A DNA stretch of 13,712 nt from Pseudomonadota bacterium (GTDB taxonomy: Bacteria > Pseudomonadota > Gammaproteobacteria > Burkholderiales > Burkholderiaceae_B), in the NCBI GenBank assembly GCA_021793095.1, contig JAJYTK010000006.1, positions 1 through 13,712 on the forward strand, given 5' to 3'. Both the position numbers and the translations under genes were made by a program. Of this stretch, positions 1-2,817 are shown in pieces. Below the pieces are notes generated by a model. That model was not told where the DNA came from. It saw only the letters and a program-made list of their open reading frames with translations, and ran no database searches. The number at the start of each line of letters is the position of its first letter. Position 1 is the stretch's first letter.

Positions 1-1739
1 AGCACGCCACTGACTCCCCCACCCTAGTCAATGTACAGCAGCTAGTTGAAGAATACCTGGACCGCAGTGATTGGCGTGTCAATGCAAACGCCAATCAGGG
101 CTATTCCTTGGGTGGACTCATTCTTAATATGGCCGGCAATGTGACTGCCAACTATTGGTTAAACCATATCTATGATCCAGACATTGGTATCGCCCACCGC
201 GAGGGCGATGTACATATTCATGATCTGGATATGCTTTCGGGCTATTGCGCCGGCTGGTCGTTGCGCAACCTGCTCCAAGAGGGGTTTAACGGCGTTCCCA
301 ATAAGGTCGAGTCTGCGCCCCCCAAACATTTAAGCAGCGCCTTGGGGCAAATGGTTAATTTTTTAGGCACTTTACAGAATGAGTGGGCTGGTGCACAGGC
401 CTTTAGCTCTTTTGATACCTATCTCGCCCCCTTTATTCGCAAAGATCAGATGAACGAAAGCGAGGTGCGACAGTGCATGCAGGAGTTTATTTATAACCTA
501 AATGTCCCTTCGCGCTGGGGCACACAAACCCCTTTTACCAACCTGAGCTTTGATTGGGTGTGTCCTGATGATCTGGCCAATCAACAGCCATTCATCGGGG
601 GTGAGGTTTTGCCCTTTACCTACGGCGAGCTTCAAGCGGAAATGGATCTCATTAATCGCTGCTTTATAGAAATTATGCTCGCTGGCGATGCCAAAGGACG
701 AGTGTTCACCTTTCCTATCCCTACCTATAACATCACCAAAGAATTCGACTGGGAGGGCCCCAATACTGACTTACTCTTTGCCATGACGGCCAAATATGGT
801 CTGCCCTATTTTCAGAATTTTGTGAACTCTGATCTTGAGCCGCATATGGTGCGCTCAATGTGTTGCCGACTGCAATTAGATTTACGCGAGTTACTCAAAC
901 GTGGTAATGGCCTCTTTGGCTCAGCAGAGCAGACCGGCTCCCTAGGCGTAGTGACCATTAATTGTGCCCGTTTAGGCTATCTCTACAAACATGATTTATC
1001 CGCACTCTACGCGCGGATTGACGAGCTGATGGAGATGGCAAAAAATAGCCTTGAAAAAAAACGTACCACCATCTCTGAATTGATGGAACAAGGGCTTTTC
1101 CCCTATACACGTCGTTATCTTGGCAGTCTCCGTAATCATTTTTCAACCATTGGCGTCAATGGGGTCAATGAAATGATCCGCAATTTCACAGACGACGCGC
1201 ACGATATTACGGATGAGCCAGGCATGCAAATGGCCATCGATCTTTTGCATCATATTCGGGCCAAAATGGTCACATTCCAAGAAGAAACAGGCCACCTTTA
1301 TAACCTCGAGGCGACACCCGCCGAGGGAACAACCTATAGATTCGCCAAGCTAGACCGAGCGCGATTTGCCGACATCATACAGGCTGGTACCGCAGAAAAC
1401 CCCTATTACACCAACTCTACTCAGCTACCCGTAGACCACACCACTGATCCTTTTGAGGCCCTGGCCCTACAAGATGAACTGCAGGCACTGTATACCGGGG
1501 GCACCGTGCTACACCTGTACATGCAAGAAGCGCTTTCTAGCGCCCAAGCCTGCAAATTATTGGTTCGTCGTGCCCTGTCAACCTATCGCCTGCCTTATTT
1601 GACGGTCACCCCCACATTTTCCATCTGCCCCAAGCATGGTTATTTGTCAGGACATCATGAGTTTTGCCCGCGCTGTGATGAGGAAATCCTCGCAGCCAAA
1701 CACAGTGCATCGGTTCAATCTGCATCAGCTGTTGATTGA
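1..1739 (+). CDS. nrdD: Anaerobic ribonucleoside-triphosphate reductase, catalytic chain (5' partial; lacks glycyl-radical domain)
   Basis: This is the 3' part of a class III ribonucleotide reductase, which reduces ribonucleoside triphosphates to deoxyribonucleotides without oxygen. The frame is open from position 3, so the true start lies left of the window; the TTG at 108 falls inside conserved sequence (NANQGYSLGGL) and is not a start. About 578 residues are visible. The two expected active-site cysteines are present: GYCAGW (codon 246-248) and TINCARLGY (codon 963-965). A C-terminal zinc-ribbon follows, CPKHGY...CPRC, with cysteine codons at 1626, 1665 and 1674 and a histidine (1635) in place of the usual second cysteine. 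The chain stops about 20 residues after the ribbon, before any RVxGY glycyl-radical motif. In ordinary NrdD that motif is on the same chain; here it is in the next gene. Family assignment is firm. The substrate-specificity region and any ATP-cone lie outside the window. Confidence 0.95.
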   Translation, partial: HATDSPTLVNVQQLVEEYLDRSDWRVNANANQGYSLGGLILNMAGNVTANYWLNHIYDPDIGIAHREGDVHIHDLDMLSGYCAGWSLRNLLQEGFNGVPNKVESAPPKHLSSALGQMVNFLGTLQNEWAGAQAFSSFDTYLAPFIRKDQMNESEVRQCMQEFIYNLNVPSRWGTQTPFTNLSFDWVCPDDLANQQPFIGGEVLPFTYGELQAEMDLINRCFIEIMLAGDAKGRVFTFPIPTYNITKEFDWEGPNTDLLFAMTAKYGLPYFQNFVNSDLEPHMVRSMCCRLQLDLRELLKRGNGLFGSAEQTGSLGVVTINCARLGYLYKHDLSALYARIDELMEMAKNSLEKKRTTISELMEQGLFPYTRRYLGSLRNHFSTIGVNGVNEMIRNFTDDAHDITDEPGMQMAIDLLHHIRAKMVTFQEETGHLYNLEATPAEGTTYRFAKLDRARFADIIQAGTAENPYYTNSTQLPVDHTTDPFEALALQDELQALYTGGTVLHLYMQEALSSAQACKLLVRRALSTYRLPYLTVTPTFSICPKHGYLSGHHEFCPRCDEEILAAKHSASVQSASAVD

Positions 1740-1759
1740 AAAGGGCCGCACTGCCTTTT
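1739..1759 (+). other. Intercistronic hairpin between nrdD and the radical-domain gene
   Basis: AAAAGG(G)C and GCCTTTT can pair as a 6-7 bp stem with one bulged G, starting inside the nrdD stop codon. A short T-rich stretch (1764-1769) follows. It is too weak for a confident terminator but could tune the ratio of the two reductase chains or protect an mRNA end. This is seen only as pairing potential. Confidence 0.3.
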
Positions 1760-1780
1760 AATGACTTTTTAAAATTAATC

Positions 1781-1786
1781 AGGAGA
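1781..1786 (+). promoter_or_regulatory. Ribosome binding site of the radical-domain gene
   Basis: AGGAGA lies with the AGGAG core 5 nt before the ATG at 1791. This near-consensus site shows that the small downstream reading frame is translated on its own and is not merely a remnant behind a broken nrdD. Confidence 0.8.
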
Positions 1787-1790
1787 AATC

Positions 1791-1961
1791 ATGCAAAACA
1801 TCAACCTCAACACTGCCCAATCTACCGCCGCATTAAAAGATGAGGATCGCCAGCGCTGCGAAGTGTGGACACGCGTCATGGGCTACCACCGTCCGACCTC
1901 CTCGTTTAACATCGGCAAAAAAGGTGAATTTAAAGAGCGCGTGCATTTTGTTGAACATTAA
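1791..1961 (+). CDS. Stand-alone glycyl-radical domain of class III ribonucleotide reductase (56 aa)
   Basis: This small gene encodes the part missing from the upstream nrdD product. The protein has a variable N-terminus (about residues 1-18), then RCEVWTRVMGYHRP, in which Gly31 (codon 1881-1883) aligns with the radical-bearing glycine of NrdD, and then a conserved-looking tail SSFNIGKKGEFKERV. In standard NrdD this is the extreme C-terminus, where NrdG abstracts hydrogen from glycine. Here the gene has its own ATG and a strong ribosome binding site. It is in the same frame as nrdD but separated by three in-frame stops (1737 TGA, 1770 TAA, 1776 TAA), so a single sequencing error or frameshift cannot explain the split. 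I infer that the small chain docks onto NrdD much as the GrcA (YfiD) spare domain docks onto pyruvate formate-lyase. I cannot say from here how widespread this arrangement is. Confidence 0.88.
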   Translation: MQNINLNTAQSTAALKDEDRQRCEVWTRVMGYHRPTSSFNIGKKGEFKERVHFVEH

Positions 1962-2088: not shown

Positions 2089-2817
2089 ATGCGAACAAAC
2101 ACCACAACCCCACAGCGCACGGCCATACAACTAGGTGGTTTTGTGCCTTTTAGTGCCAGTGATTATCCCAATCACTTGGTCTGCGTTGCTTTTATACAAG
2201 GATGCAACTGGCGCTGCGGCTACTGCCATAATCCACATTTACAATCGCGTCAGCCCCACCCAATGGCCCCTCAGTGGGCGGACATCACTGATTTTTTGCA
2301 ACAACGTCAGGGCTTATTGGATGCAATTGTCTTTAGCGGCGGAGAGCCCACCATGGATCCCGGACTGCCAGCCGCCATTCTCGAAGCTAAATCTATAGGC
2401 TTTAAAATTGGTTTACACACCACCGGAGCCTATCCCAACAGATTCAAGGAAATACTGCCTCATATTGACTGGGTAGGCTTTGATCTAAAAAGCAGTTGGG
2501 CGCATTATCATGATGTTATTTTGCACCAGCAGCCAATAGAGATGGTGCAGCGCAGTTTAGCGCTACTGCTAGACAGTCACTGTGATTATGAAATACGCAG
2601 CACCCTTCATAGCGGGCTACATCAGCCAGAACATTTGTTAGAGATGGCCCAAAACCTCGCCGCCTATGGCGTACAAGACTGGGTGATACAAAACTTTCGC
2701 ACAGATGGCTGTATTGACCCCGAACTGCTCTATGCCCCGCATGAACCGCAGAAGATTTTAAATGAGGACGTATTACAGACCCTGAAGGCCTACGTCCCCA
2801 ATATTCAGATCCGCTAA
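2089..2817 (+). CDS. nrdG: Anaerobic ribonucleotide reductase activating protein (radical SAM)
   Basis: This is the cytosolic radical-SAM activase that uses a [4Fe-4S] cluster and S-adenosylmethionine to install the glycyl radical, here expected on the separate small protein encoded at 1791-1961. The diagnostic cluster motif is GCNWRCGYCHN with Cys39, Cys43 and Cys46, followed by the SAM-contacting SGGEPT motif. Length is 242 aa from the chosen start, in line with the longer NrdG2-type activases and longer than E. coli NrdG. The start at 2089 is preferred because AAAGGCAG lies just upstream and the protein begins shortly before conserved sequence. An earlier in-frame ATG at 2020 has no ribosome binding site and would translate through the hairpin at 2037-2067. 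The gene is 127 bp downstream of the radical-domain gene on the same strand and probably in one operon. Its 3' end faces the flavoprotein gene across 28 bp. Confidence 0.92.
   Translation: MRTNTTTPQRTAIQLGGFVPFSASDYPNHLVCVAFIQGCNWRCGYCHNPHLQSRQPHPMAPQWADITDFLQQRQGLLDAIVFSGGEPTMDPGLPAAILEAKSIGFKIGLHTTGAYPNRFKEILPHIDWVGFDLKSSWAHYHDVILHQQPIEMVQRSLALLLDSHCDYEIRSTLHSGLHQPEHLLEMAQNLAAYGVQDWVIQNFRTDGCIDPELLYAPHEPQKILNEDVLQTLKAYVPNIQIR

Follow-up and report, generated by a model that had tools for sequence, protein, structure and literature searches.

A class III ribonucleotide reductase with its glycyl-radical domain encoded by a separate small gene in a Burkholderiales genome and its relatives

The window analysed here is a stretch of 13,712 nucleotides that makes up one whole contig (G000:C276) of a draft metagenome-assembled genome (MAG; 288 contigs, 72% complete) of the order Burkholderiales. 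It carries genes for a class III ribonucleotide reductase in which the catalytic chain, NrdD, ends after its zinc ribbon, and the glycyl-radical domain (GRD) is encoded by a gene of its own as a 56-residue protein. The radical glycine is off the catalytic chain, as the NrdD stop codon at 1737 precedes the domain. We consider it highly likely that NrdD (barrel and zinc ribbon), the small GRD protein and the activase NrdG together make up a working three-protein enzyme.

The nrdD, GRD and nrdG genes of the window and its relatives

The coordinates of the genes and of the features within them are collected in Table 1. The window NrdD matched the class III family NF006126 with 1041.8 bits (cut-off 548) and the catalytic domain of PF13597 with 584.3 bits, and the small protein matched the last 31 positions of the same PF13597 profile with 34.8 bits (cut-off 26.2), so that the two chains together fill one profile of 562 positions with no overlap. 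PF13597 was the sole Pfam match of the small protein at E≤1, and no GRD of the pyruvate formate-lyase (PFL) type was found in it. The nrdD stop codon (TGA, 1737-1739) lies 20 residues past the zinc ribbon, and the open reading frame (ORF) of the small protein, which in the window is in the same frame as nrdD, starts at the ATG at 1791 behind a ribosome-binding site (AGGAG, 1781-1785). The first-pass annotation had described just this arrangement, with three stop codons between the two parts, and the sequence and the PF13597 matches confirm it. The radical glycine, Gly31 of the small protein, is encoded by GGC at 1881-1883. All four candidate zinc-ribbon ligands lie on the NrdD chain, and C287-C288 of NrdD, the candidate site of the active-site finger-loop cysteine, align with a CC pair of Thermotoga maritima NrdD.

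Table 1. Features of the class III ribonucleotide reductase locus of the window
Feature	Position	Strand	Basis
nrdD, catalytic chain without radical domain	1..1739	+	PF13597 profile 2-531 of 562; NF006126
Zinc ribbon CPKH...CPRC, ligand candidates C542, H545, C555, C558	1626..1676	+	sequence
C-terminal tail of NrdD, DEEILAAKH..., predicted to be helical (residues 556-576 of the model)	1677..1736	+	AlphaFold2 model
Intergenic stretch: TGA 1737, 51-nt gap, in-frame TAA 1770-1772 and TAA 1776-1778	1737..1790	+	sequence
Separate GRD gene, 56 aa, N-terminal motif KDEDRQRC	1791..1961	+	PF13597 532-562; relatives
nrdG, radical-SAM activase (TIGR02495 NrdG2)	2089..2817	+	170.3 bits, cut-off 131.15; Radical_SAM PF04055

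The nrdD frame is open from base 3 and the start of the gene lies beyond the window, which holds 578 residues of it; an overlapping contig (C173) adds 12 residues, giving a chain of about 590. An ATP-cone is absent, as judged from a profile search and from the C173 overlap. The NrdD of one relative (G043) has an ATP-cone, and in several other relatives the open frame, at 571-606 aa, leaves no room for one. An alternative start of nrdG lies at 2020. No further NrdD was found in the 72%-complete genome, the sole other match (C173) being a 127-bp contig overlap. A full-length nrdD elsewhere in the genome together with a decayed GRD would have spoken for a broken gene; neither was encountered, and the GRD is conserved.

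A search for NrdD in the genome of the window and in 60 others gave matches in 20 of the 61. The 60 other genomes hold 16 further NrdDs with 71-75% identity and near-complete coverage; a fragment that spans residues 8-175 only (L019, in G030) was left unclassed, and L020-L022, at 25-26% identity, belong to other, distant NrdD types. None of the 16 close relatives has a GRD on its NrdD chain, and in 15 of them the GRD gene lies just downstream of nrdD. The adjacency proposed as a check by the earlier annotation is conserved, and species with fused versions were found as well (29 of the 113 rows of the tree described below). Within the order of the window, PF13597 was matched in 126 of 399 genomes. 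The catalytic chain ends before the GRD in 94 of these (profile end ≤540, table read by hand), two of which, G489 and G617, are truncated fragments; a partner GRD was among the matches listed for part of the 94. The rest comprise six in-frame splits (one match with a stop codon), 24 genomes with fused forms only and two fragments. Among 185 genomes of the class, 17 matched (13 split, three fused, one weak).

The protein database contains 4584 small relatives of the GRD at E≤0.01. The best 120 of these, which are the most similar ones, all match PF13597, and 21 residues from L15 to F53, Gly31 included, are invariant among them. Most of the 120 are nameless and others are called 'hypothetical protein' or 'anaerobic ribonucleoside-triphosphate reductase'. 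When 23 GRD sequences were compared over 38 codons, the median pairwise dN/dS was 0.15 (188 of 253 pairs, the other 65 being saturated or failed). A sequence search of the PDB with the 56-residue protein returned one chance-level match (E 0.25), and its match among phage families, phrog_4132, is annotated 'unknown function'. The same three genes occur on pHG1 of Cupriavidus necator H16, where the first (676 aa) is labelled ribonucleoside triphosphate reductase, the second (66 aa) 'nrdD' and the third activating protein. The suggestion that the split might be a widespread trait hidden under an unnamed or misnamed small protein is borne out by these relatives, by the splits across the order and by the pHG1 label.

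Two published cases may involve the same arrangement. In the genome paper of C. metallidurans, Rmet_5137 and Rmet_5139 are named NrdDG, and we found a GRD match in a replicon of C. metallidurans CH34 at a spot without an entry in the incomplete gene table. Pseudomonas aeruginosa PA1920 is given as 76 kDa (PMC12284477), about the size of the GRD-less C. necator chain, which we take as a lead only.

Predicted fold, proposed mechanism and known systems

The window NrdD and GRD were folded with AlphaFold2 as one tethered read-through chain, the stop codons being replaced by Gly as linker only. The best of five models had a mean pLDDT of 87.8 and a pTM of 0.88 (the others, pLDDT 81.6-85.4); the linker blocks were at 40-55 and GRD residues 611-650 at 86-93. 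The structural match of the model to fused class III enzymes takes in the C-terminal domain, and Foldseek agrees on the family. In this model the GRD is predicted to sit in the NrdD barrel at the place of the C-terminus of the fused enzymes. Because the input sequence alignment contains fused homologues, the fold speaks for compatibility of the two chains and not for binding.

In the mechanism that we propose, the predicted helix of the NrdD tail, as a docking element, and the N-terminus of the GRD would stand in for the lost covalent link. NrdG would load the radical onto Gly31, with the GRD either free or bound to NrdD, and the radical would then move to an active-site cysteine of NrdD, where the Cys287-Cys288 pair is present. 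The GRD should be exchangeable because it is not covalently attached to NrdD, and an oxygen-damaged GRD could be swapped for a fresh one, of host or of phage origin.

The sequences establish that NrdD is split, that the split is conserved, that the GRD gene is independent and that the new ends are conserved too. Several points weigh against the further step to a working three-protein enzyme. The split NrdD is known here from sequence and a predicted fold; that fold was steered to the fused answer by the single tethered chain and the fused homologues; the source genome is a fragmented MAG; and the genetics of C. necator H16 reportedly concern nrdD and nrdG. Should the split be functional, work on NrdDG only in such bacteria, C. 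necator among them, has missed a subunit.

To our knowledge, the radical glycine is on the catalytic chain in all characterised NrdDs. The window system resembles class III NrdD (NF006126/PRK08270) with NrdG (TIGR02495) in catalytic barrel, zinc ribbon, activase, GRD sequence and operon order, and differs in having the radical glycine on a separate 56-residue chain and in lacking an ATP-cone. We file it as a variant of class III NrdD because its radical glycine is not on the catalytic chain. Class III enzymes are described in the literature as one catalytic chain, forming a dimer, plus an activase, and the consulted passages of ribonucleotide reductase surveys and reviews have no mention of a detached radical domain in them (PMC4390871, PMC9531940, PMC9669993, PMC3019208, PMC2795772). 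We found no description of an NrdD split at the radical domain, or of a stand-alone NrdD GRD in phages, in a literature search that left subscription journals mostly uncovered.

The closest parallels are YfiD (GrcA) of Escherichia coli and Y06I of phage T4, which are likewise small free-standing glycyl-radical domains that fit a larger enzyme, with a phage version among them; as of 2021 they were the only validated spare parts (PMC8683613). The parallel with GrcA drawn in the first-pass annotation thus stands for function, a small glycyl-radical part, and fails for membership: the window GRD is of the NrdD type (PF13597) and its catalytic chain has no GRD of its own, whereas the enzyme rescued by YfiD has one. 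With no intact NrdD detected in the 72%-complete genome, the small protein would here be an obligate component rather than a spare. Other ribonucleotide reductases in pieces are less similar. Split class II NrdJa/NrdJb (PMC4520616, PMC9669993) is also a reductase in two chains, but of another class, divided at another piece and without a glycyl radical, and the pieces of phage nrdD genes with introns or homing endonucleases (PMC3653736) arise from inserted elements, whereas the window has only a 51-nt gap. If the split is functional, the GRD could be exchanged or mutated independently of the barrel, and the two-part system would offer a way to test radical loading and damage by oxygen.

Free-standing domains in bacteria and viruses

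By PF13597 search, five of 53 split genomes have more GRDs than catalytic chains (G292, with four GRDs, G308, G315, G316 and G283), and no stand-alone GRD was found in any of 26 fused genomes. The extra copies of G315 and G316 share their gene neighbours. No catalytic NrdD was found on the contigs of the extra GRDs in G292, G308, G315 and G316. In the order of the window, G551 has a second GRD near AcaB, SSB and DUF2857 genes, in what is putatively a conjugative element. The genomes with extra GRDs are drafts in which mis-binning is possible, least so for the locus common to G315 and G316. The extra loci (L169, L170, L171, L172-L174, L175) come from Alphaproteobacteria-titled MAGs and the putative conjugative element.

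Viral GRDs were collected in two scans of IMG/VR, in which some loci lie on one record or are near-copies. The first, with GRD alignment A1, gave 140 relatives, of which 80 were kept (L181-L260); tblastn with the window NrdD and NrdG found no match in flanks of up to 6 kb in any of the 80, and five control loci were positive. The second, for GRDs of the EVYSRVVGY type, gave 408 relatives and again 80 were kept (L261-L340): 62 without NrdD nearby, 14 long ORFs, one with a separate NrdD and three unclassed. Over both scans, 142 of the 160 loci lack an nrdD nearby. The radical-glycine motif is present, by selection, in 141 loci, 61 of which have at least 5 kb on both sides.

Sampling of one to three ORFs each on 14 viral contigs with PHROGs placed clear phage packaging or structural genes near the GRD in L186, L218, L287, L192 and L229, and gave weaker or other phage-family matches in L314, L286, L284, L283, L205, L222 and L245. 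The tested ORFs of L217 and L282 had no phage-family match. The GRD of L282 matches the end of an NrdD PHROG and has 240 protein-database relatives at E≤0.001, some from Lentisphaeria, Victivallales and Thermoguttaceae MAGs. In some viral GRDs (L218, L189, L247, L254) the motif is preceded by Cys-rich sequence that may form a separate metal site, and three viral records carry two GRD copies each (L290, L269/L281, L278/L292).

The unlinked and viral GRDs suggest an NrdD counterpart of the PFL spare parts YfiD and Y06I. One interpretation, which we hold to be evenly poised, is that the NrdD GRD is a general exchangeable radical cartridge: a separate subunit in many bacteria and some archaeal-labelled MAGs, present in some genomes as unlinked extra copies, and carried alone by a putative conjugative element and many uncultivated phages, which would supply it to the host NrdD and keep anaerobic deoxynucleotide synthesis going while the host is infected or following damage by oxygen. 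Andorfer et al. (2021; PMC8683613) considered spare parts conceivable for glycyl radical enzymes other than PFL, and the unlinked and phage-borne GRDs are concrete candidates for these. A phage GRD of this kind would be the class III counterpart of T4 Y06I. As far as we know, it would also be the first such part to serve any glycyl radical enzyme besides PFL.

The strongest alternative, which we rate only a little short of even, is that the split has no part in oxygen repair and is either neutral or an aid to activation, in that NrdG could act on a free GRD more easily than on a barrel-bound one, or a means of setting the subunit ratio. Oxygen does cleave class III enzymes at the radical glycine (PMC3019208, PMC2795772), and the first-pass annotation had proposed that a replaceable radical domain would suit a microaerobic life. 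This rationale is not supported so far. Of 24 split genomes, 6 have the oxidase subunit COX2 (PF00116), as against 3 of 26 fused ones (Fisher p 0.28); this is a crude oxidase proxy in a small, hand-picked sample of genomes without stated completeness and hence not a strong negative. Pairing genomes on the tree yielded seven pairs and no signal, a number too small to exclude one. MAGs titled Sutterella, Termititenax and Halanaerobiaceae, which are anaerobic lineages, have split NrdDs too, and the GRD remains with nrdG where nrdD is elsewhere, as an activation role would have it. On the other side, the extra unlinked and viral GRDs fit a supply of spares better, and no activation of free YfiD could be detected unless cleaved PFL was present (PMC8683613), which argues against easy activation of free domains. 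Of the proposed replaceable subunit, therefore, the replaceability has gained indirect support from unlinked genes, extra copies and viral GRDs, and the link to oxygen has not.

It is also possible, though in our judgement unlikely, that the viral GRDs are left over from phage nrdD genes or belong to some other system and do not serve a host NrdD. Some viral contigs do have nrdD, as the 14 long ORFs and the separate NrdD of the second scan attest. In INPHARED, the window GRD matched one record (ANMV-1 virus) and the viral-type GRD three, and no orphan GRD was demonstrated among these phages: MT835493 has an NrdD directly before the match, and the Oceanotoga match falls at the end of a gene product annotated as class III large subunit. 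Moreover, no hosts are assigned, and the IMG/VR records, of 7.6-110 kb, include none rated 90% complete or more. Against decay, however, the 141 motif-bearing loci form 112 clusters at 90% of the core, with ORF medians of 62 and 66 aa. A PF13597 search of 100 whole records, for 50 loci of each scan, found GRD-sized matches only and no catalytic NrdD in 99; the remaining one, L326, which has the catalytic chain, had been picked although an NrdD is near, the other 49 of the second scan having been picked for their orphan look.

Separateness of the genes and evolution of the split

That the gap is bridged in translation by read-through or frameshifting, giving one chain, is very improbable. The GRD ORF is in the nrdD frame in the window and in some relatives, as read-through would demand, but the 15 relatives with adjacent genes differ in spacing and show every one of the three frame relations, and the window has three stops in the way. 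Read-through also cannot be general, because in the sixteenth relative, G043, about 9 kb separate nrdD from the GRD gene, which immediately precedes a radical-SAM gene of the nrdG kind; at L078 the GRD stands behind an nrdG-like ORF (recognised by eye). Decay, frameshift or assembly error, leaving a broken nrdD with a lingering last piece, might be suspected in a fragmented draft MAG with three stops between the parts, yet is scarcely credible given the same split in 15 of 16 relatives from independent assemblies, single-contig G057, G017, G027 and G011 included, and on pHG1, together with the ribosome-binding site, purifying selection and conserved new termini.

Among 80 named loci, 26 NrdDs are fused and 54 split (hand corrections included), and a tree for which 113 NrdD chains were compared as far as the zinc ribbon holds 84 split and 29 fused rows. 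This quick tree, with 36 open forks, needs at least 11 changes of state, of which at least seven are forced by well-supported branches, and still 11 after four long or gappy rows are dropped. L105, L116, L119 and others are long rows; the fused L105, L116 and some others may be trimmed inexactly at the zinc ribbon; and the chains of L012, L047, L105, L115 and L117 were set by hand. Duplicates (L107, L122-L133, L136, L137) and loci without a picked chain (L002, L019-L022, L120, L121, L134, L135, L138) were left out. Gain and loss of the split are not told apart, since the tree is unrooted. The NrdDs of L005, L006, L008, L013 and L016, of the same family as that of the window, cluster with Undibacterium; phylum labels are MAG titles, where mis-binning is possible.

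The cut falls within a short stretch, as the fused chains indicate: among 26 of the 29 fused rows, 20 have exactly 19 residues between the zinc-ribbon HGY and the R of RVxGY. On the NrdD side of the cut, split chains carry a conserved tail, CDEE-L-A-K, that is rare in fused chains. Tails were picked for 83 of the 84 split rows, 79 of which keep the second CxxC; a D follows it in 78 of the 79 and an E stands two residues beyond in 65, the median tail being 16 residues. On the other side, split GRDs share a start, L-x-D-D/E-E/D-R-Q-R/P-C. Only L060 of the 26 fused rows has the D after CxxC, and its 49-residue spacer holds both extensions (CDEETIAR... and ...TEEQRQTC), so that L060 is most simply seen as a re-fused split gene. 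In one genus of the order of the window, the fused L139 and L143-L146 have spacers of 24-26 residues, with RQPC kept in two, and L140 has a spacer of 19. In the archaeal-labelled L075, L076 and L079 the second zinc knuckle is itself divided, NrdD retaining one Cys of the pair, and the small proteins of L076 and L079 begin with CG just before the GRD motif; a zinc site common to both chains, with one ligand from the small chain, is possible.
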